Source of the DNA: Phycisphaerae bacterium | Lineage (GTDB): Bacteria; Planctomycetota; Phycisphaerae; Sedimentisphaerales; Anaerobacaceae | Reading direction: 5' to 3' | Assembly: GCA_030630315.1 (NCBI GenBank) | Contig: DAOVNI010000027.1 | Location: 1-10,083 of the forward strand | Length of the DNA: 10,083 bases | Shown: positions 1 through 10,083 of the stretch, one piece after another | How positions within the stretch are numbered: the stretch's first letter is position 1 | Layout: every line of letters starts with the position of its first letter | Program-made: the position numbers and the translations under genes | The notes under the pieces: generated by a model | What the model saw: only the letters and a program-made list of their open reading frames with translations | Told to the model about the DNA's origin: nothing | The model's database searches: none

Positions 1-1505
1 AAGAGCATCGCTGCCCCGACACAGTCGGCGATTCTGTACCTGTCAGCAAATAGCTTTATATTCGGAGCATAAACAACCAGGCGTTCATACCGGCTCTCGA
101 GACGGGCAATCACATCCTTTATGTTTGTTACCTCCGTCTCCCCACCCCCTTTGTTAAAATTACTCGCCGCCCATACCCAGAGATTGTTAATACAGGTTGC
201 AATTGCTTCTCCTCGCACTCTGTTACTGCGCTCCACACTGTCAATGTCAAAAACCTTTGATATGGCACCCCTTTTCAAATCGAGGTCTATCAGCAAACAC
301 TTTTGGTTCCTCTGTGCCAGATGCACCGCGACGTTTACAGGTATCGTTACCGGAAGCTCTTCGACACTCTCAGCGGCCATCAATATCGTCTTAGTAGGGG
401 CGGTTCGCAAACCGCCCCTACTTTCGATTAACTCCGCGATTGCCTCGTAATAATCACTATCTTTAATTTCTTCCCAAACCCACAAGCTCAAATCATTTTT
501 TTCGTCTTCGTTTCCGATAGATTGAGATTCATCGACCCATTCGAGGTCTTCGGACACTATTTTCTCGGTCTCGATGTTAGCGCTTGCAGCGGGATTTGTA
601 ATTTCAGTTAATTCAGCATCAATATATTCAACCGGCTCGGCCCGGCACTTTGACGGGTCGACGTCCGGCCCGGCACTTTGACGGGCTGCTTGTTCTGTGA
701 GCTCATCATTGGCGTCGGCAGACACAGAGCTTTTTCGGACGAGGTATCCAGAGGCCACGGCAGCAACCAGGGCGGGTATCTGTGTTATTAGACCTGCCCC
801 CACAGCTAAAGTCGCATATGTTTTTATTGATATCCCCGCAGTTGTTCCGCCAACTATTCCCATAGCCATCGAAGCCGCCATATTAACAAAGACAATCACA
901 AGTTCGATAACAGCAGCGCAAACTATAAATCTTGCAGCACCGACCATCGCAACAAAAAACCCGGCCTCACGAGCGATTTTACGCCGTAGGTTAAGGGCCT
1001 GGCTCTCGTTGATAAGCCCGGCGTTAAGGTCGCTGTCGATATTGATTTGCTTGACAGGGACAATATCCGCAGTAAACTCCGTCGCAGCCCGGCTAATATC
1101 CTTGACGGCTTTACAAATAGTTCTGAAGATGACTATTGCCAGCGCGCCAAAGACCAAAATTGCAAATACATAATTGTTCCTGACAACAATACTGCCGAAA
1201 AGACTAATGATGGTGCCGGCATTGCTCTGCGAGAGTATCAGTCGGCTGCAAGCCACGCTCAGGGCTATACGCAACATTGTGGCCAGCACGATTAACAAAG
1301 GGAAACCCTGAACCTGCAAAGCTCCCCGTGCTGAAAAAGTGATTATCAACACTGCCGCCGTTAAAGATACGCTAAATATTAGAAGCACATCGAGAATATG
1401 GGCTGGCAGTGGAAGTAAAAGCCCGGCAATAACTGCAATTACCACTGCTGTGAAAAGGGTTCGGGCACCATTTTGACGTGCCCCGGTTTCTCGAGCATCA
1501 AGCAT
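1..1505 (-). CDS. FlhA-like export-gate protein fused to a degenerate ParA/BY-kinase-like domain (3' end off window)
   Basis: The ORF is open from ATG at 1505 to the left edge: 501 codons and no stop. An AAAGG ribosome site overlaps the flhB stop, 9 bases before the ATG. Residues 15-258 align by eye with the FlhA export-gate domain. They hold about six membrane helices, the ATMLRIALSVACSRLIL segment (73-91), a cytoplasmic loop with VKQINIDSDLNAGLI (151-165), and GAGLITQIPALVAAVASGYL (236-255). Normal FlhA then has two more helices and a large cytoplasmic ring domain; neither follows. Residues 260-350 form an acidic linker. Residues 353-501 resemble SIMIBI P-loop ATPases (BY-kinase, ParA, CpaE): a helix, strand TKTILMAAES, helix NVAVHLAQ, then LLIDLDLKRG (404-413) like the Walker A' motif, and later YERLVVYAPN (473-482) like the Walker B strand. 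The GxxxxGK[ST] loop is absent (SVEELPVT instead) and the Walker B acid is Tyr. It is either a divergent FlhA or a paralogue; ATP binding is unlikely. Confidence 0.8.
   Translation of the reverse strand, partial: MLDARETGARQNGARTLFTAVVIAVIAGLLLPLPAHILDVLLIFSVSLTAAVLIITFSARGALQVQGFPLLIVLATMLRIALSVACSRLILSQSNAGTIISLFGSIVVRNNYVFAILVFGALAIVIFRTICKAVKDISRAATEFTADIVPVKQINIDSDLNAGLINESQALNLRRKIAREAGFFVAMVGAARFIVCAAVIELVIVFVNMAASMAMGIVGGTTAGISIKTYATLAVGAGLITQIPALVAAVASGYLVRKSSVSADANDELTEQAARQSAGPDVDPSKCRAEPVEYIDAELTEITNPAASANIETEKIVSEDLEWVDESQSIGNEDEKNDLSLWVWEEIKDSDYYEAIAELIESRGGLRTAPTKTILMAAESVEELPVTIPVNVAVHLAQRNQKCLLIDLDLKRGAISKVFDIDSVERSNRVRGEAIATCINNLWVWAASNFNKGGGETEVTNIKDVIARLESRYERLVVYAPNIKLFADRYRIADCVGAAML
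393..422. repeat. Perfect inverted repeat inside the flhA-like gene
   Basis: Two perfect 13-base arms, AGTAGGGGCGGTT and AACCGCCCCTACT, flank the 4-base loop CGCA, giving 30 bases or exactly ten codons. Read in the gene it encodes SRGGLRTAPT (residues 362-371), between the first helix and first strand of the P-loop-like domain, where an insertion would be tolerated. It looks like a dispersed palindromic element that landed in frame. It could form a strong hairpin in DNA or mRNA, but it has no T-run and sits mid-gene, so it is not a terminator. Confidence 0.8.
638..685. repeat. Direct repeat of 20 bases in the flhA-like linker
   Basis: CGGCCCGGCACTTTGACGGG occurs at 638-657 and again at 666-685, a period of 28 bases. 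Because 28 is not a multiple of three, the two copies are read in different frames, and together they encode about residues 274-290 of the acidic linker. On the coding strand each copy carries CCCGTCA...GCCGGG, the same ends as the palindrome near the start of fliO, so they may be shortened members of one element family. Confidence 0.7.
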
Positions 1506-1518
1506 CGCTTTTTGCCTT

Positions 1519-2583
1519 TCATTTTTTATGCCGCAGCCGATATATCAAAGCCAGCACCTCTGCTACAGCTATGTACAGCGTCTCCGGTATGGGACCGCCG
1601 AGCTTCACTGTTGAATATATTGTCCTGGCCAATTCCGGTTTTCTTACGATAGGCACCCCGTAAGCCTGTGCGATTTCTTTGATTTTTTCTGCCAGATGAT
1701 CTGCTCCTTTTGCCACCATAATAGGTGCTTCCATCGTCTTGGCCTCGTAACGCAGCGCAACAGCTACGTGTGTTGGGTTGACAAGAACCACGTTGGCCTT
1801 GGGCACTTCCTGCATCATACGCTTCAGCGACATCTCGAACTGCTTCTGTCGGAGCCGCCTTTTGACCTCAGGCGAACCTTCTGTCTGCTTGCGCTCTTCT
1901 TTTACCTCCTGACGCGTCATCTTCAAATCCTTGATGTATTTCCATTTCTGGTAAAAAGTGTCGGCAATTCCTATAATCAGAAGCGCAATGCAAACACGAA
2001 TCATCAGCCCTAATATTATCTTCGCGATAGCTGCAAGTATCTGTAAAGACCAGGCCCATCGAAGGGGCGCAAGCATATCGATCCTGTCGCGAAGGTACAG
2101 CCAGACGATGATTGTGACAAAAAACAGTTTTACTATGGATGTTAAAAGGTGTACCGCAGACCTGGCATTTACCAGCTTTTGTAACCCTGCTATTGGGTTT
2201 ACCAGATTAAATCTCAATTTTATAGCTCCCAGCGTGAAATTAAAGCCGCTGATAGCAACGTTGGTCACAATAGACCCCGCACAAAGTGCTGCAAGAATAG
2301 GCCAGATAACAAGTACCGAATCGGTAATCTTTGCGTTGAAAAAGCTTATAAACGTCTTGCTGTTGGCAAAAATTGCGTTTTGGCACGACATCCCTTGCCT
2401 TATTTGCATAATGAACCATTGCATCATCCTTGGTGCCAATAAAGTTACTATTGTTACCAGCACCAGAATTGACACAGCCGACATCAGTTCGAGGCTCTGC
2501 GGAACCTGCCCTTGCTCTCGGGCTTTGCTCAGTTTTCTCGATGACGGCTGTTCTGTCTTTTCAGCGGCTGGTTTGTCTGCCAT
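1519..2583 (-). CDS. flhB: Flagellar export switch protein FlhB
   Basis: FlhB is the inner-membrane component that closes around the FliPQR gate and switches the export apparatus from rod/hook to filament substrates after self-cleavage. The product is 354 residues, normal for the family. A hydrophilic N-terminus (SSRKLSKAREQGQVPQS, 14-30) is followed by four hydrophobic segments (about 34-60, 88-115, 145-165, 183-209), a charged linker (212-250) and the cleavage domain with NPTH at 269-272, inside VVLVNPTHVAVALRYE. I chose ATG at 2583 because it gives the usual MAD..EKTEQPS start and has AGG 8 bases upstream; a TTG two codons earlier (2589) is possible but too close to that site. A 56-base gap separates it from fliR, and the flhA-like gene follows after 13 bases. 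Confidence 0.96.
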   Translation of the reverse strand: MADKPAAEKTEQPSSRKLSKAREQGQVPQSLELMSAVSILVLVTIVTLLAPRMMQWFIMQIRQGMSCQNAIFANSKTFISFFNAKITDSVLVIWPILAALCAGSIVTNVAISGFNFTLGAIKLRFNLVNPIAGLQKLVNARSAVHLLTSIVKLFFVTIIVWLYLRDRIDMLAPLRWAWSLQILAAIAKIILGLMIRVCIALLIIGIADTFYQKWKYIKDLKMTRQEVKEERKQTEGSPEVKRRLRQKQFEMSLKRMMQEVPKANVVLVNPTHVAVALRYEAKTMEAPIMVAKGADHLAEKIKEIAQAYGVPIVRKPELARTIYSTVKLGGPIPETLYIAVAEVLALIYRLRHKK

Positions 2584-2645
2584 ACTCAATACCTATCATA
2601 TTAGCGGAGAGAGAAAGAAAACTATACGATGAGTGCTATCCGCTG

Positions 2646-3398
2646 TTAAAGGGGCAGCAGTTTGCCCATCCAATCAGCGAATTCAGCCACAAATCCGTTA
2701 ATAAATGGCACAAATATCGCTGCCATTAACAATCCCAGGCCCACACGCAGTGGCAAACTGATAAATAGGATGTTCATTTCCGGAACTATCCGTGCTAACA
2801 CCGCTAACGCAACCATCAACACCAGAAACGCTGCCAATATCGGAGCGGACAATCTCAAGCCGGCCATTAACAATGTTGAGCCGGCTTTAATTATTCCGCT
2901 GGCCAAAACGGCCATCGTCGGGATATTGCCGGCCGGAAACGCTTCGTAACTTCGCGAGATAATTAACAAAAACATGTGGTGACCATTAGCGCTCAAAAAC
3001 AGCAGTATAAATATCGTCTCCAGAAGCATACCCAGTGGCTGAGCTTGCTCGCCGGTCAATGGGTCCAAAATCTGGGCCATAGCTAAACCCATCTGACGTT
3101 CGATAATACGCCCGCTGAATTTAACCGTAGCAAATACAAGATAAACAATTAGTCCCAGAGCCAATCCATAGGTGGCCTCATTGACCAGCAGCAATATCGC
3201 TTCCAATAAAGAAACCTCTCTGGGCTCGATAGCCGAAGGCGTTATCATCGAAAAGAAAATCGTCACCAGCACGGTTATTGCAACCTTAATCCTGATAGGA
3301 ATGCTTTTCCAGCCAAAGACGGGAAGCACTATAAAAAATGCCGAAATTCTTGTCAGAACCATCATAAAACCGAGCAGCTTTTCGATCATCAGTTCCAT
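2646..3398 (-). CDS. fliR: Flagellar export gate protein FliR
   Basis: FliR is a subunit of the FliP5-FliQ4-FliR1 gate in the inner membrane at the centre of the basal body. The 250-residue product has the expected length and about six hydrophobic segments. Family-typical stretches are FMMVLTRISAFFIVLPVFG near the N-terminus, ERQMGLAMAQILDPLTG with the conserved DP in the middle, and IVPEMNILFISLPLRVGLGL towards the C-terminus. The ATG at 3398 begins 3 bases after the fliQ stop, so the two are probably translationally coupled; no clear ribosome site is visible. A second in-frame ATG three codons on (3389) cannot be excluded. It lies between fliQ and flhB in the classical P-Q-R-flhB order. Confidence 0.96.
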   Translation of the reverse strand: MELMIEKLLGFMMVLTRISAFFIVLPVFGWKSIPIRIKVAITVLVTIFFSMITPSAIEPREVSLLEAILLLVNEATYGLALGLIVYLVFATVKFSGRIIERQMGLAMAQILDPLTGEQAQPLGMLLETIFILLFLSANGHHMFLLIISRSYEAFPAGNIPTMAVLASGIIKAGSTLLMAGLRLSAPILAAFLVLMVALAVLARIVPEMNILFISLPLRVGLGLLMAAIFVPFINGFVAEFADWMGKLLPL

Positions 3399-3401
3399 AA
3401 A

Positions 3402-3671
3402 TCAGTGCCCGATATTCTGAATATGGCCAAAAATTTCGGTGAAAAATCCAAGTATCACCTGGAGTGTCCGGCCACCGAAAAGGATTGTCACGACACTTAT
3501 AGCCAGAAGCTTGGGTACTATCGTTAAGCTCATATCCCGGACGGAAGTAACAGCCTGAAACAATGTTACCGTTACCCCTACTATCATACAGGTCAGCAAA
3601 ATCGGAGCGGCTACAACCAGAGCTGTTTCGAGAGTATGTCGGCCCAGATAAAGGGCAAAACTACTATCCAT
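3402..3671 (-). CDS. fliQ: Flagellar export gate protein FliQ
   Basis: FliQ is the small two-helix subunit wrapped around FliP/FliR in the export gate. The product has 89 residues, the standard length. It has two hydrophobic hairpin segments (about 15-40 and 51-78) joined by the family loop LFQAVTSVRDMSLTIVPKLL, where usual FliQ has Q-x-x-E-x-[TS]-L and this one has Asp for Glu. The ATG at 3671 is preceded by a GGGGA-type ribosome site. A 28-base gap follows the fliP stop, and fliR begins 3 bases after the FliQ stop. Confidence 0.95.
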   Translation of the reverse strand: MDSSFALYLGRHTLETALVVAAPILLTCMIVGVTVTLFQAVTSVRDMSLTIVPKLLAISVVTILFGGRTLQVILGFFTEIFGHIQNIGH

Positions 3672-3699: not shown

Positions 3700-4539
3700 T
3701 CATTTGAAACCCAGGCTGAGACTCTTCGCCAGCAACCCCCACCCGTCGACAAGAATGAATAATATCAGCTTGAAAGGCAGCGAAATCATCACAGGCGGCA
3801 GCAGCATCATACCCGCACTAAGCAAGATACTTGCAATAACTATATCCACCAGCAAAAAAGGAATAAACAAAAGACAGCCTATCTCAAACGCCGTCCGGAA
3901 TTCACTGATGATGAATGCAGGAATTACTATGTGCATACCAATATCCATCGGACTTGCGGGCGGCTCTACCTTGGCCATTTGCACAAAAAGGGCCAGGTCA
4001 GTTTCCCGAACCTGACGGAGCATGAATTCCTTGATGCAATCGCCGGCTTTGCCACCCGCCGTTTGAAAATCAATCTCGTCCGCAAGATAAGGCTGGATGG
4101 ACTTATTGTTGATCGCCGAAAATGTGGGAGCCATCGTATATAGCGTCAGAAACAACGCCAAACCTACAATGGCAATGGTAGGTGGTATACTTTGCGTGGT
4201 CAAAGCCCGACGAATAAAAGCCAGGACTATAACTATTCGCGTAAACGATGTCATCATCACCAGAAGACTTGGCAAAATCGACAGGGCGGCAAAGATGATT
4301 ACAAGTTTGACGGGTGTGGACCAATCTTTGCCTTCGGACTCGCTGGTGGTTGCCTTATCTATAAGTGACATCAAATCGCTAATGCTTGGAACCGTCCCCG
4401 CTGCTTCGCTTTTGCGAAGCAAAACGGCGGGGACCAGCTCGCTCGCTGAGGAACTATCGTCAGTCTGGCCAAAAGACAAATCAGCCGGTGCAAAGACAAC
4501 AAACAATAAAAAAAACATTCTAATAAGTTTGCCGGCCAT
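3700..4539 (-). CDS. fliP: Flagellar export gate protein FliP
   Basis: FliP is the main subunit of the export gate through which flagellar proteins cross the inner membrane. From ATG 4539 it has 279 residues: a cleavable-looking signal sequence (about 1-24), a periplasmic linker (25-67), a first membrane hairpin running into MMTSFTRIVIVLAFIRRAL, a periplasmic domain with EFMLRQVRETDLALFVQMA, and the C-terminal gate helices with IPAFIISEFRTAFEIG and SAGMMLLPPVMISLPFKLIL. These are signature stretches of FliP. I prefer ATG 4539 over TTG 4551 because GAGGA (4545-4549) lies 5 bases before it. The fliO stop is 8 bases upstream. The linker contains a palindrome-derived insertion, described separately. 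Confidence 0.96.
   Translation of the reverse strand: MAGKLIRMFFLLFVVFAPADLSFGQTDDSSSASELVPAVLLRKSEAAGTVPSISDLMSLIDKATTSESEGKDWSTPVKLVIIFAALSILPSLLVMMTSFTRIVIVLAFIRRALTTQSIPPTIAIVGLALFLTLYTMAPTFSAINNKSIQPYLADEIDFQTAGGKAGDCIKEFMLRQVRETDLALFVQMAKVEPPASPMDIGMHIVIPAFIISEFRTAFEIGCLLFIPFLLVDIVIASILLSAGMMLLPPVMISLPFKLILFILVDGWGLLAKSLSLGFK
4394..4434. repeat. Interrupted palindrome in the fliP linker
   Basis: Outer arms GTCCCCGC (4394-4401) and GCGGGGAC (4427-4434) enclose an inner hairpin TGCTTCGC/GCGAAGCA (4402-4409, 4414-4421) with a TTTT loop; five bases on one side are unpaired. The 41-base unit is read in frame as residues 36-49 of FliP (VPAVLLRKSEAAGT), between the signal sequence and first membrane helix, a region not conserved in FliP. 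It resembles an inserted palindromic element rather than a terminator, since it lies within an intact reading frame. Confidence 0.75.
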
Positions 4540-4544
4540 TTTTA

Positions 4545-4549
4545 TCCTC
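4545..4549 (-). promoter_or_regulatory. Ribosome binding site that decides the fliP start
   Basis: GAGGA on the minus strand lies 5 bases before the ATG at 4539 and overlaps the fliO stop codon. It supports ATG 4539 over the TTG at 4551, which would include this site in the coding region, and it suggests coupled translation of fliO and fliP. Confidence 0.65.
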
Positions 4550-5078
4550 AATTATTATCTGTCTCTGTCGCTGATAAATCCATTTCCGAATTAAAAACGT
4601 CCCTGTTTTCAAAATCCCCGCTTCCGCGGGGACGAGCTTGCCCCTGCAACGGCAGGGGGCGGGAACCTTCGCATCCGGCTTCGGTTTCAGACAAGGCATC
4701 AGTTACATCAGCCAGCTTCGTAATGTTCTCGCTTGTGCTGCCTATAAGGAGCTGTTGATTACCTATTTTTAGCAGATGTACCATCTTACGCGGTCCGATG
4801 TGGGCCGTTTCGATGACGCGAATCTTTTTGCCGGGCAGGTTGGTAATCCTTGGCAGAAATTTCTTTGAAATGTAAATCACTGCTGCACCCAGGGCAACAA
4901 CGAGCAAAACCGAAAGCATCATTTTAAAGAACATCTCTCGGGCACCAGGGCTGTTGGCCGAGGAGAGGAAAAAATTGGGGTCGTTTGCGAACCCGGCAGT
5001 TTGCCCCAGGCAAACTGACGGGCTGACCAACGCAACCGCCACCAAAAACGCAACGATTTTTTTCTTATATGCCGCCAC
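4548..5078 (-). CDS. fliO: Flagellar export assembly protein FliO
   Basis: FliO is a bitopic membrane protein that helps assemble the FliP ring. The product has 176 residues: an N-terminal signal-like segment (8-25), a membrane helix (about 52-70) and the FliO core KKIRVIETAHIGPRKMVHLL followed by LLIGSTSENITKLADV (84-125). The tail from about 130 is low-complexity and acidic, and part of it is encoded by G+C-rich hairpins. The start is GTG at 5078; an in-frame stop lies about 40 bases upstream and no ATG is available before residue 49, but the ribosome site is weak. Its position directly before fliP is classical. The signal-like segment holds a cysteine (SVCLG, residue 23) and is itself overlapped by a palindrome, so its processing is uncertain. 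A sigma-54-type promoter lies upstream. Confidence 0.88.
   Translation of the reverse strand: MAAYKKKIVAFLVAVALVSPSVCLGQTAGFANDPNFFLSSANSPGAREMFFKMMLSVLLVVALGAAVIYISKKFLPRITNLPGKKIRVIETAHIGPRKMVHLLKIGNQQLLIGSTSENITKLADVTDALSETEAGCEGSRPLPLQGQARPRGSGDFENRDVFNSEMDLSATETDNN
4615..4658. repeat. Two G+C-rich hairpins in the fliO tail
   Basis: TCCCCGC/GCGGGGA (4615-4621 and 4626-4632, loop TTCC) and CCCCTGC/GCAGGGG (4641-4647 and 4652-4658, loop AACG) sit side by side. They encode residues 141-155 of FliO (PLPLQGQARPRGSGD), a proline/arginine/glycine-rich stretch in an otherwise acidic, poorly conserved tail. The reading frame stays open. Pairing could also form between the C-runs and G-runs of the two hairpins. 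Confidence 0.7.
4992..5022. repeat. Imperfect palindrome at the fliO signal region
   Basis: CAGTTTGCC (4997-5005) and GGCAAACTG (5009-5017) pair around the loop CCA. One mismatch beyond them, CCCG and CGGG extend the stem to 4992-5022. It encodes residues 19-29 of FliO (SPSVCLGQTAG), at the expected end of the signal sequence. The CCCGTCA...GCCGGG ends match those of the two shorter copies in the flhA-like linker. Confidence 0.65.
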
Positions 5079-5286: not shown

Positions 5287-6036
5287 CTAATCGTTTATCC
5301 TCAGCACCGCGATTAATATCTGCGACTGTCCGGAAATCGGGCTGTCCTGCGACACCCAATCGCCTCCCGGCCCCGCCCCCCATGAATAAACAGGCCAGTT
5401 GGCCCTGGAAGGCAGGATATCTTGCAGGAAGTCCGCAACCGCCTGAGCTCGCCTGGCTGAGAGTATCCACTGCTCTTTCTCGCTTGCTTCATCACCGGCT
5501 AAACCAAGCACATAGAGTCTGACGGCCTTGGAATCGGGGTCCTGTTGTAAATCCGAGCAAAATTTGGTTAAAAACCTCTTTGCCGGCTCATTCAAGGTCG
5601 CATCGCCCGCCGCAAAACGAATATTGGTTACTGAAAAATTCGTTCTTTCTGCGACTATTTGTGAACGCATAGTCTTCATAGACCGGCTCACTGCTTGAAA
5701 AGTCTGGCGAACCCTTTCTCCCTTTGCATCTATGGTCCTGCCTCCAGATTGCCTGTCAGGGCTGGTTATGAAATATTTTGGTTTAACATTGCCGAAGTCG
5801 GGCCCTTGCTTTTTGCCGTAAAACATTCCAAGCCCGAGGGTTCTAATCGCTCTAAAAAATGATTCTCGGCTCTCGGTATATCGACCCTTGCCGGGAAATC
5901 CCTCGTCCTGGACACTCGCAAAGCTCAGCAGCGTAATAAAGAACAACATCAGCAGCGTTACCAAAGCCGTGAATGTGACCAGATACGCAGGGGCACTAAG
6001 CCCTTTTTCCTCGACTACTTGGCCCTTATGATTCAA
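5287..6036 (-). CDS. Second MotB-like stator protein lacking the ion-binding aspartate
   Basis: The 249-residue product has a MotB layout. A single N-terminal helix APAYLVTFTALVTLLMLFF (15-33) is followed by a long periplasmic linker and a divergent OmpA/MotB-like domain (about 134-249) with IRFAAGDATLNEPAKRFL, ILSARRAQAVADFL and YSWGAG. In MotB the helix has the form P-x-W-x-x-T-F-x-D, and the Asp binds the driving ion; here that position is Ala24 (codon GCT at 5965-5967). Some peptidoglycan-contact features are also altered (GLAGD for GHTD, GQSQ for NRR). It starts at TTG 6036, overlapping the motB stop by three bases, with GGAG 9 bases upstream and no ATG nearby. Its place after motA-motB suggests a stator partner or regulator, perhaps in a mixed MotB dimer. 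It could also act on its own as a peptidoglycan anchor. Confidence 0.8.
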   Translation of the reverse strand: MNHKGQVVEEKGLSAPAYLVTFTALVTLLMLFFITLLSFASVQDEGFPGKGRYTESRESFFRAIRTLGLGMFYGKKQGPDFGNVKPKYFITSPDRQSGGRTIDAKGERVRQTFQAVSRSMKTMRSQIVAERTNFSVTNIRFAAGDATLNEPAKRFLTKFCSDLQQDPDSKAVRLYVLGLAGDEASEKEQWILSARRAQAVADFLQDILPSRANWPVYSWGAGPGGDWVSQDSPISGQSQILIAVLRIND

Positions 6037-6731
6037 TTGTATATGCTCCGTTCCAACAAGACAATCTCAAGCCTACGTTCAGTTCTTTGCCTTAGGTGGT
6101 CCGTCTCACCGCTTTCAAGGCCCTCCCGAGTTAGAGTGCTTGCTGCCGAGATGCTGAACCACCCCTTGTCAAGGCCTTGTTTTGTTGTAAGATACTCCAT
6201 CACCGCCCATGCCCGCAGCAGACCGAACTGTTCCTCCTCCTCGTCTCCCGGCCCATTCTCACTGATAACTATTCGGTTGGGTACCTCTTTCAGAAATGAT
6301 GCCATCGTCGCCAGGGTATTGCGCCCCTCAGACGAAATGGTCGCTCCTTTAGCCCAAAAAATCCTCTTTGATGAGATTAAAAATACCTTCCGGCTGTGAA
6401 AATCCGCAGACTCTGTCTCTTCTTTCAGGCCGGCCTCCCATCCTTCTGCTAAGGTAACTTTCTCGCTGCCTTCACCAAGGTATTCTATGGCCACAATTTG
6501 CTCCGTAGGCAAAAATGCACCTTTGTCCTCTTCAACCGGCGGAGTCTCTGCATACAGAGCCTTGGCGAAACTCATAGCCATTTCCTGAAAAACATCTACA
6601 TTAAAGGATGAAAAACTGAACAGCAGCACAAAGAACGTCAGCATCAGGGTCATACAATCGCAGAAAGTTACCATCCATAGCGGTGCACCTGCTGGCTCAT
6701 CGGCTTCTGACTGTCTTTTTGTGCCGCCCAT
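6033..6731 (-). CDS. motB: Flagellar motor stator protein MotB
   Basis: MotB is the stator subunit that conducts ions with MotA and anchors the motor to peptidoglycan. The product has 232 residues. The N-terminal helix APLWMVTFCDCMTLMLTFFV (16-35) contains the essential aspartate as Asp25. A linker and a divergent OmpA-like domain follow (about 112-227), with KVFLISSKRIFWAKGATI, LLRAWAVMEYL and TERRLEIVL, where the usual GHTD motif is not evident (ENGPGD). The ATG at 6731 overlaps the motA stop by one base (TAATG), so translation is probably coupled. The domain is shorter and more divergent than in enterobacterial MotB, but the helix makes the identification firm. The second, Asp-less MotB overlaps its end. 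Confidence 0.92.
   Translation of the reverse strand: MGGTKRQSEADEPAGAPLWMVTFCDCMTLMLTFFVLLFSFSSFNVDVFQEMAMSFAKALYAETPPVEEDKGAFLPTEQIVAIEYLGEGSEKVTLAEGWEAGLKEETESADFHSRKVFLISSKRIFWAKGATISSEGRNTLATMASFLKEVPNRIVISENGPGDEEEEQFGLLRAWAVMEYLTTKQGLDKGWFSISAASTLTREGLESGETDHLRQRTERRLEIVLLERSIYN
6046..6049 (-). promoter_or_regulatory. Ribosome binding site for the TTG start of the second motB
   Basis: GGAG on the minus strand, 9 bases before the TTG at 6036 and within the end of motB. With no in-frame ATG nearby, it is the main support for a TTG start. Confidence 0.5.
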
Positions 6732-7505: not shown

Positions 7506-8207
7506 TTACTCTTCGATTATTTGTTTTAACCTCTGGCACAAAAGCGCTGCAAGGTTGGGCTCAGAAGTGACTAACTCAGCTAACAGCTTCGCTTTGGTCC
7601 TCTCGGTCATATAGTGCAGAATCTTCACAGCGTCATCGAGGCTGCTGCCACCAACCCCACCCTTTTGCATTTGGGTCATATTAGTCAATATCTTGCTTGC
7701 ACTGGCCGAATCCATCTTGTCATAAGCAGCCGCTATTGTTGTCAGGTTCTTCTTTTCGGCCTTGGCAATCTCAACCCTGCTCTTAAGCAGCTTATCGTGC
7801 TCACTCTTAAGACTGGCAACGGTTGAAGCAAGTTCGATTCGCAGATTATTCAGCTCCTCGATGTCTTTTTTAATCAAATTGTGGGCTCTCTGTAACCTTT
7901 GCTCCCGCACTTCAAGGCCCTGAAGCTTACCGTGATACTCTTGTATCTTTTCCCGCACCTCATAAACAAGGCTCTTGAGTCGTTTTTCCGTCATAGCTTT
8001 TTTCATCTCGCTGCCGGCTGCGCCAACGGCACTTATCGCACCTGGCTCGACGGTTGGACCCTCGGATGGTTCGACGGCTGGACGCCCGGATGCTTCGATG
8101 GCTGAAGGGCTCACCGGTTCGGCGCCTGTAAGCCATGCAAAGATAAACGTCACCGCAAAGCTCACCAGCCCAGCCGCACCTATCATTATTATTCGTTTCT
8201 TACTCAC
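7506..8207 (-). CDS. MotE/YlxF-like coiled-coil membrane protein with MgtE-N-like C-terminus
   Basis: The 233-residue product has one N-terminal membrane helix (about 6-27) and a proline/glutamate-rich repeat linker (36-59). A long coiled coil follows (about 68-155, rich in Lys, Glu and Leu), and then a helical domain (157-233) with IAAAYDKMDSASASKIL, DDAVKILHYMTERTKAKLLAEL and LAALLCQRLKQI. That last part matches the MgtE N-terminal-like repeat fold of MotE and YlxF proteins, which sit beside fliJ or stator genes. MotE in rhizobia is known as a periplasmic helper of motor protein MotC; the role here, by position between fliJ and motA, is probably stator assembly or stability. The start is GTG at 8207 with a strong AGGAG site 7 bases upstream. 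The specific function is inferred. Confidence 0.75.
   Translation of the reverse strand: MSKKRIIMIGAAGLVSFAVTFIFAWLTGAEPVSPSAIEASGRPAVEPSEGPTVEPGAISAVGAAGSEMKKAMTEKRLKSLVYEVREKIQEYHGKLQGLEVREQRLQRAHNLIKKDIEELNNLRIELASTVASLKSEHDKLLKSRVEIAKAEKKNLTTIAAAYDKMDSASASKILTNMTQMQKGGVGGSSLDDAVKILHYMTERTKAKLLAELVTSEPNLAALLCQRLKQIIEE
8031..8102. repeat. Three tandem 24-base units in the motE-like linker
   Basis: On the coding strand, three consecutive 24-base units encode AIEASGRP, AVEPSEGP and TVEPGAIS (residues 36-59). The first two match closely at the DNA level; the third has diverged in its second half. They form a spacer between the membrane helix and the coiled coil, so copy number would set its length. 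Confidence 0.65.
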
Positions 8208-8732: not shown

Positions 8733-10070
8733 CTATTGCGTTTGGGAACCCAGCAGCTCATCCCACGATTGGGTGATAGCGGTTAATCGTTTGATGGTTT
8801 CTTCGAAATCGGTTCTCTCTCGAATAGGCTGAACAAGAAAGCTATTTATTCTGTTAATCAAAGAAATCGCTCCGTCAATACGCCGATTGCTGCCTGGTGA
8901 AAATGCACCGATGTTTATTAAATCTTCCGCATCAATATAGGTGGCATATATCTCCTTGAGCTTCTGTGCAGCGGACTTGTGCTCTTTGCTCGTCACCGCA
9001 GGCATCAATCGGCTCACGCTTCCCAGAATATCCACAGCGGGATAATGTGCCCGGTCAGCCAGTTTTCTTGATAGAACTATGTGCCCATCCATAAGACTCC
9101 TGGCGCTATCAGCCACAGGGTCGGTCAAATCATCGTTTTCAACCAGAACCGTCAGAATACCTGTGATGCTCCCGCTCTCGGCGCATCCCAGACGTTCGAT
9201 GAGTCTCGGCATAAGTGAAAAAACACTCGGACAGTAGCCCTTTGTTGCCGGCGGCTCACCCGCTGCAAGACCTATCTGACGCTGGGCCTGCGCGAAACGC
9301 GTAAGCGAATCCATCATAAACAGAACATTTTTGCCCTTGTCCCTGAAATATTCGGCAATTGTAACGGCTACAAACGCTGCCTTTACGCGCTGAATCGGAG
9401 GTGAATCCGATGTAGCAACGACAACCACGCTGCGAGCCAGACCCTCCGGCCCAAGGTCTTCTTCAAGAAACTCGCGGACCTCCCTGCCGCGCTCACCTAT
9501 CAATGCCACGACATTGACAGCCGCCTCACTCGAATTGGCGATATCGCCGAGAAGTACACTCTTGCCAATTCCGCTGCCAGAGAAAATTCCTATTCGCTGT
9601 CCCTTACCACAGGTCAATATCCCATCTATCGACCTGATTCCTAAAGCTAAGGGCTCTGTAATTTTTTCGCGGCTCAAAGGCGGCGGACTACTTACGTCTA
9701 ATGCCTTCTTATCTGTCCCTCCTAACGGGCCTTTATTGTCGATAGGCTCTCCTAACCCGTTTACTACTCTACCCAGGGCACTGTCGCTTAGGGTAATATA
9801 GCGCGTAGTGGTTCGGGCAGTTACCGTATCGCCCGGTGATATACCCTCTATATGCTCTAACGGCAGCAGGATAAGATGGTCATTCTGGAAACCTACCACT
9901 TCAGCCAGCACACGCCGGCCATCGCGAATATGGATGCCGCACAGCTCACCTAAACCTATTACCGGGCCGGCAGATTCAACCGTCAAACCGGACACTCGTA
10001 CCACAAGACCACGGCAATCCAACAAATTCACCGTGCGCAGCGCCGAGTGAAATTTCTCAAAATCAATCAA
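8733..10070 (-). CDS. fliI: Flagellar type III export ATPase FliI
   Basis: FliI is the cytoplasmic hexameric ATPase at the base of the export apparatus; it is related to F1-ATPase beta. With the TTG at 10070 the product has 445 residues. An N-terminal beta-barrel-like part (1-95) is followed by the nucleotide-binding core: Walker A GSGIGKS (165-171), GERGREV with the catalytic Glu (192-198), Walker B VLFMMDSLTRF (249-259) and the ATPase signature PAVDILGSVS (344-353). A C-terminal helical part ends at TAG/TGA-type stop position 8733. All catalytic motifs are intact. The start is not certain: the frame remains open for the 13 bases upstream to the window edge (reading SENY before the TTG), with no ribosome site visible, so the true start may lie just outside. 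FliJ follows after 46 bases. Confidence 0.95.
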   Translation of the reverse strand: MIDFEKFHSALRTVNLLDCRGLVVRVSGLTVESAGPVIGLGELCGIHIRDGRRVLAEVVGFQNDHLILLPLEHIEGISPGDTVTARTTTRYITLSDSALGRVVNGLGEPIDNKGPLGGTDKKALDVSSPPPLSREKITEPLALGIRSIDGILTCGKGQRIGIFSGSGIGKSVLLGDIANSSEAAVNVVALIGERGREVREFLEEDLGPEGLARSVVVVATSDSPPIQRVKAAFVAVTIAEYFRDKGKNVLFMMDSLTRFAQAQRQIGLAAGEPPATKGYCPSVFSLMPRLIERLGCAESGSITGILTVLVENDDLTDPVADSARSLMDGHIVLSRKLADRAHYPAVDILGSVSRLMPAVTSKEHKSAAQKLKEIYATYIDAEDLINIGAFSPGSNRRIDGAISLINRINSFLVQPIRERTDFEETIKRLTAITQSWDELLGSQTQ

Positions 10071-10083
10071 ATAGTTTTCAGAG

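Follow-up and report, generated by a model that had tools for sequence, protein, structure and literature searches.

A truncated FlhA-like gate fused to a predicted BY pseudokinase in a flagellar operon of Phycisphaerae

Work on FlhA has so far treated it as a single indispensable nonamer whose tail serves for docking. What, then, is the gene behind flhB in the present flagellar operon, which starts out like FlhA and ends in a domain of another kind? The window, i.e. the whole stretch of DNA analysed here, is the complete 10,083-base contig C266 of a 1.81 Mb genome that is 69% complete. Its minus strand carries an operon in the order fliI, fliJ, a coiled-coil gene, motA, two motB-like genes, fliO, fliP, fliQ, fliR, flhB and the fusion gene, with motA, like fliI, fliP, fliQ and flhB, being named from its translation and from relatives in the same slot. 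The fusion gene encodes 501 amino acids and is open at the contig end. Its homologue P0001 from another assembly has 538 amino acids and is 98% identical to the window protein, so that about 37 residues are absent from the window copy. The following features were assigned:

3..1505, minus strand: fusion gene encoding a pseudo-FlhA gate and a predicted BY pseudokinase, truncated by the contig end (open reading frame, Pfam, homologues, model)
678..1433, minus strand: FlhA-like membrane domain, residues 25-276, with helices 1-6 and the FHIPEP loop, without helices 7-8 (Pfam FHIPEP, E 6e-63; model)
498..647, minus strand: disordered acidic linker, residues 287-336 (pLDDT below 50 in the P0001 model)
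3..473, minus strand: predicted BY-pseudokinase domain, residues 345-501, plus 37 residues in P0001 (sequence and structure comparison)
345..368, minus strand: former P-loop, residues 380-387 SVEELPVT (alignment to the CapB P-loop)
270..296, minus strand: Walker A'-like strand, residues 404-412 LLIDLDLKR (site counts among relatives)
63..83, minus strand: former Walker B, residues 475-481, with Tyr 479 in place of Asp (alignment to CapB)
1519..2589, minus strand: flhB, directly upstream of the fusion (named from translation; synteny)
2646..3398, minus strand: fliR (PF01311 at C266:2682-3374)
3402..3671, minus strand: fliQ (named from translation; homologues in the same slot)
3700..4551, minus strand: fliP (named from translation; homologues in the same slot)
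4548..5078, minus strand: fliO (Pfam FliO, E 1e-11)
8733..10082, minus strand: fliI, open at the other contig end (named from translation; relatives in the same slot)

Both of the adjoining motB-like genes (5287-6731, minus strand) matched MotB_plug and OmpA, and the pair is also present in most related loci. The coiled-coil protein between fliJ and motA (7506-8207, minus strand) gave a weak match to MgtE_N (E 0.03) and is, as we presume, possibly MotE-like.

The N-terminal half of the fusion is of the FlhA type. Pfam FHIPEP matched residues 25-276 with profile positions 1-255 of 657 (E 6e-63) and was likewise matched by all 78 relatives scanned, and the PDB matches of the membrane domain were SctV and FlhA chains (best E 1e-55). 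The P0001 model (mean pLDDT 83, pTM 0.57) contains six long helices (9-277) and, past a disordered segment (287-336), an alpha/beta domain that follows about residue 344. A preliminary description of this DNA had proposed an FlhA gate that runs up to helix six and lacks the nonameric tail, and both points hold. The FHIPEP alignment ends at position 255, residues 260-501 had no match to the nonamer-forming cytoplasmic domain of FlhA in Pfam, and since the linkers of all 78 relatives are free of transmembrane-like 19-mers, helices 7-8 are absent. The fusion thus differs from FlhA by lacking helices 7-8 and the cytoplasmic tail, while it shares helices 1-6, the FHIPEP loop and the residues D45, R94 and K203, the latter two as Lys or Arg.

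Beyond what had been described, residues of the proton path have degenerated in the gate half as well. The available excerpt of PMC3139655 gives R94, D208 and D249 as critical in Salmonella, and that of a 2026 preprint (PMC13308203) names an R85-D208 salt bridge and D249, N137 and Q254 as essential. We aligned 88 fusion sequences (78 from alignment A4 and 10 from additional loci, some of them near relatives of one another) with 25 canonical FlhA, 24 from the class and that of E. coli K-12, which served as the yardstick and whose letters at eight positions agree with the Salmonella residues in the paper. Kept among the 88 fusions were D45 (87), R94 as Lys or Arg (87), R270 as Lys or Arg (85), K203 as Lys or Arg (77), R85 (74) and Q254 (62), and D158 was found in 48. 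D249 and an Asn or Gln at position 137 are lost in all (0/88 each; position 137 is mostly Ile, with 6 Thr and 2 Ser), and D208 (19, plus 7 Glu) and R206 (7) in most; D199 occurred once, R147 in 12 and R154 in 4. Each counted site was kept by 24 or all 25 of the canonical FlhA, with one row gapped at several sites: D208 and D249 were each found in 24 (with one row a gap at both), position 137 was Gln in 24 and Asn in one, and position 270 was Lys in 23 and Arg in one. In alignment and model, the predicted FlhA fold of helices 1-6 is kept together with several structural residues, and because key proton-path residues are lost the membrane half looks like a gate subunit unable to conduct. In this respect the family would be a natural experiment that separates the structural residues of FlhA from those needed for proton coupling.

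A dead subunit of this kind might be an intrinsic brake, or a terminator of the ring: it would mix into the FlhA nonamer and, having no helices 7-8 with which to wrap its neighbour, would stop or inactivate gates, with the pseudokinase setting the timing. The excerpt of PMC13308203 describes helix 2-6 cores in the Salmonella nonamer, each decorated with helix 1 from one neighbour and with helices 7-8 from the second; helices 1-6 are retained in the fusion, which offers no transmembrane-like segment for 7-8. Moreover, the R94A, D208A and D249A mutants were dominant-negative, a result that the authors interpret as incorporation (PMC3139655, excerpt). However, the membrane half is only 30-52% identical, by segment, to the FlhA of its own genome, so mixing is not assured, and a separate ring is equally possible. 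We consider the brake unlikely as an explanation in its own right, and attractive as a sub-case of the explanation proposed below.

The C-terminal domain had been described as a degenerate SIMIBI domain of BY-kinase layout, and sequence and structure comparisons agree with this. AAA_31 gave only a weak match (residues 387-430, E 0.01, below cut-off). In sequence as well as structure the domain is nearer to BY-kinases than to MinD and ParA, and the structure comparison recovered the BY-kinase fold including its leading helix; with the full-length model most matches aligned through the kinase half only. TIGR01007 matched 20 of 21 domains at E up to 0.1, with 41.5 bits for the first member against a cut-off of 108, and is not decisive alone, since a MinD/FlhG-like protein encoded beside fliA also scores 55 bits.

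As previously described, the P-loop is missing and the LLIDLDLKR and VVYAPN strands are in place, which by sequence makes the domain a pseudo-enzyme. In a 78-row alignment built without motif selection, the Walker A Lys at 385 was found in none of the 77 readable rows (P0096 is a gap at the P-loop) and the Walker B Asp in none of 78, where Y479 and P481 are invariant (78/78 each). The Walker A'-like strand is retained with D407 (78/78), D409 (77/78) and R412 (78/78). P0081 has a GKT shortly ahead of the first strand, off the P-loop site. The helix motif EX2RX2R, a feature of BY-kinases, occurred in 0 of 87 fusions versus 13 of 15 kinases of the same genomes, and at least two Tyr in the last 30 residues in 6 of 88 versus 12 of 15. 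For the EX2RX2R comparison the fusions were found by their pseudo-P-loop motif (87 of 88; P0096 was not found) and the kinases were chosen by their P-loop (15 of 18 loci; L078, L081 and L089 were left out), so that the Walker A contrast in this row set is partly by construction. The former active-site pocket (L-P/G-V-T, D.D..R, Y-A-P) is almost unchanged among fusions. This near-invariant site of a dead kinase is a defined candidate site for a ligand or partner.

Compared with the BY-kinases CapB, Wzc, VpsO and BceF (TIGR01007), the domain shares the fold with its leading helix and the D.D of Walker A', but lacks the Walker A Lys, the Walker B Asp, EX2RX2R and, usually, the Tyr tail. By sequence and predicted structure it is a BY pseudokinase. 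EcpK and HfsB are BY pseudokinases that likewise have the BY-kinase fold without catalysis according to the available part of PMC12004946. EcpK, a proposed scaffold, is there a stand-alone protein that serves polysaccharide export and has none of the three motifs, whereas the fusion has an FlhA-like gate as its anchor and its family keeps Walker A' (PMC12004946, excerpt).

The preliminary description had further suggested a MinD/FlhG-like partner that ties the gate to polar positioning, and this part is not supported. MinD, ParA and FlhG ATPases belong to the same SIMIBI superfamily and the D.D of Walker A' is kept. A possible source is also at hand in the outgroup genome G238 (locus L106), with the order fliO-P-Q-R-flhB-flhA-(451 aa)-(291 aa)-fliA: the 451 and 291 aa genes are presumably flhF and flhG, a guess from order and length, and a deletion there could yield such a fusion. 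Against this, BY-kinases outscored MinD and ParA both in sequence and in structure, and in sequence they reached 27-49 bits versus 18.5 bits for one FlhG-like protein; the FlhG comparison consists of this one sequence, as the named rows of the structure comparison include no FlhG. FlhG and MinD carry the deviant Walker A KGGxGKT, which was not found in the fusion domain and its relatives, and the P-loop Lys is missing in all 77 readable relatives. A MinD/FlhG origin of the domain is disfavoured, and since the domain is nearer to BY-kinases the results give no pointer to polar positioning. A partner for such placement, whether MinD/FlhG-like or otherwise an active nucleotide binder, is very unlikely.

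Is the gene intact and real? An assembly error, a frameshift read-through or a decaying pseudogene might come to mind, as the contig end cuts the frame and both gate and kinase residues are lost. However, single open frames cover both domains in many separate assemblies, and near-invariant residues persist in members as distant as about 24-30% identity. The dN/dS of the fusion, computed between the window and G396, was 0.30 (membrane part 0.31, linker 0.43, pseudokinase 0.20), compared to 0.14-0.51 for the other eleven operon genes and 0.22 for FlhA; a pseudogene is rejected on this value, and we regard the whole group of artefact explanations as practically negligible. The fusion is real and not a product of chance: it is an FlhA paralogue in which both halves are dead, and it occurs across the order. 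Its recurrence in relatives, on which the preliminary description had made its case depend, speaks against the assembly-error reading. In a tree the fusions lie on one side of one branch (support 100/100), with branches much longer than those of FlhA; as long branches meet there, the tree is compatible with a single origin of the fusions rather than showing it. A literature search, covering partial full texts and few subscription journals, found no published FlhA of this build. PMC9380563, in its available part, concerns a different structure.

A contig scan with one sequence found one locus only. The similarity search gave 582 matches, the best 120 of which comprised 109 members of the fusion family (several of them fragments) and 11 ordinary FlhA. 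By domain profile search (more than 80 bits, frame of at least 480 aa, up to 20 candidates scored per genome) the fusion was found in 35 of 161 genomes of the order, in families f1, f3, f4 and f7. Contig-edge pieces were found in six more genomes (G298, G110, G424, G443, G448, G417), and G259 of family f5 has a shorter fusion frame of 416 aa (L173:3821-5071, minus strand), in which a GDG beside the former P-loop is possibly a remnant. A sample of 392 genomes across the phylum, with at most 8 candidates scored per genome, gave matches of 57-66 bits outside the order, in frames of 711-872 aa, which is consistent with ordinary BY-kinases.

Unlike a sole FlhA, the fusion coexists with a canonical FlhA in at least 31 of the 35 genomes; none was among the matches listed for G369, G423, G357 and G286, which are 82-85% complete. 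In the genome of the window this second, complete FlhA, also new relative to the preliminary description, has 722 aa and adjoins a fliA-like gene on another contig. In most other loci flhA is likewise away from flhB and beside fliA, and the place directly behind flhB is one that the fusion shares with the FlhA of G238. FliR was found in 32 of 35 fusion genomes versus 84 of 126 without fusion (Fisher p 0.003, which ignores kinship; at least seven genomes counted as fusion-free hold the above shorter frames or edge pieces, G259, G298, G110 and G424 with FliR and G443, G448 and G417 without). Flagella do not require the fusion, given these 84 FliR-positive genomes of the order without it. The fusion genomes in which FliR was not found are G406 (59% complete), G409 (whose contig ends soon after flhB) and G387 (96% complete); in G406 and G409 the fusion has flhB next to it, and a canonical FlhA is listed for all three.

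The flagellar slot of the fusion bears on whether its FlhA part might be a mere membrane anchor for a protein of an envelope or exopolysaccharide pseudokinase system. A stand-alone sister of the pseudokinase, a further addition to the preliminary description, speaks for such an anchor: in G222 a 241-aa protein combines one N-terminal helix with the same dead domain. Stand-alone relatives (more than 80 bits, frame of 200-460 aa, pieces of fusions left out) occur in about 37 of the 161 genomes, and 178 database proteins matched. FliR was not found in 11 of these 37 genomes, nine of which are also without a fusion match (G158, G425, G206, G400, G445, G146, G330, G241, G081), with G146, G158, G241, G081 and G206 at least 90% complete; the stand-alone form thus does not need flagella. 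The BY-kinases and pseudokinases of PMC12004946, as far as its excerpt goes, serve polysaccharide export. On the other side, in 28 of 33 loci flhB lies at most 400 bases upstream of the fusion and in the same orientation (it was not found upstream in G075, G093 and G333), FliR accompanies the fusion in the 32 genomes given above, and the conservation of D45 and of a FHIPEP loop 47% identical to that of the own FlhA exceeds the needs of an anchor. We find the anchor improbable. Downstream of the fusion, fliD converges in 25 of 33 loci, some of the remainder being at contig edges. In ten fusion-free flhB loci the convergent fliD is directly next to flhB in seven (G345, G295, G134, G393, G179, G105, G265), while the G271 locus stops with flhB, and in G229 and G226 a different gene follows it.

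The explanation that we propose, and hold to be an even call, is that the fusion is a lineage-specific FlhA paralogue that no longer works as an export motor and serves as a scaffold, with a normal FlhA doing the transport. It would be made together with FliPQR and FlhB, and its FlhA-like part would place it in or beside the export apparatus. The pseudokinase would be displayed on the cytoplasmic side as a binding scaffold, where binding of a partner or of a small ligand, one possibly belonging to the BY-kinase machinery for exopolysaccharide, might adjust export, and the FlhA encoded elsewhere in the genome would transport. We infer this scaffold or ligand-reading role by analogy with EcpK. 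Rather unlikely is the possibility that the dead FlhA co-assembles with the export apparatus and the pseudokinase reads a ligand or the state of the exopolysaccharide BY-kinase system through the conserved former active site, so that cells switch between flagellar assembly and matrix production. That a paralogue with a broken proton path and another cytoplasmic domain has been conserved suggests regulatory dummy subunits as possible components of export gates, and with the fusion the range of BY pseudokinases would widen from polysaccharide export to include flagella.

The stand-alone family (L090:1432-2157, minus strand; L125-L153, L155-L167) consists mostly of proteins of 225-305 aa with the LPVT and D.D..R signature. 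Just upstream of the stand-alone gene, 12 of 14 loci have a partner gene, which gave no convincing Pfam match in the two cases scanned. Its product has a DADILQC-like start, a variable and often coiled-coil middle, an FNLAEQI-like motif and an IIAEIVxRDI-like C-terminal end; examples, among others, are:

L155:7558-8718, partner gene
L156:7960-9312, partner gene
L159:5062-6627, partner gene
L162:5576-7126, partner gene
L163:7775-10381, partner gene
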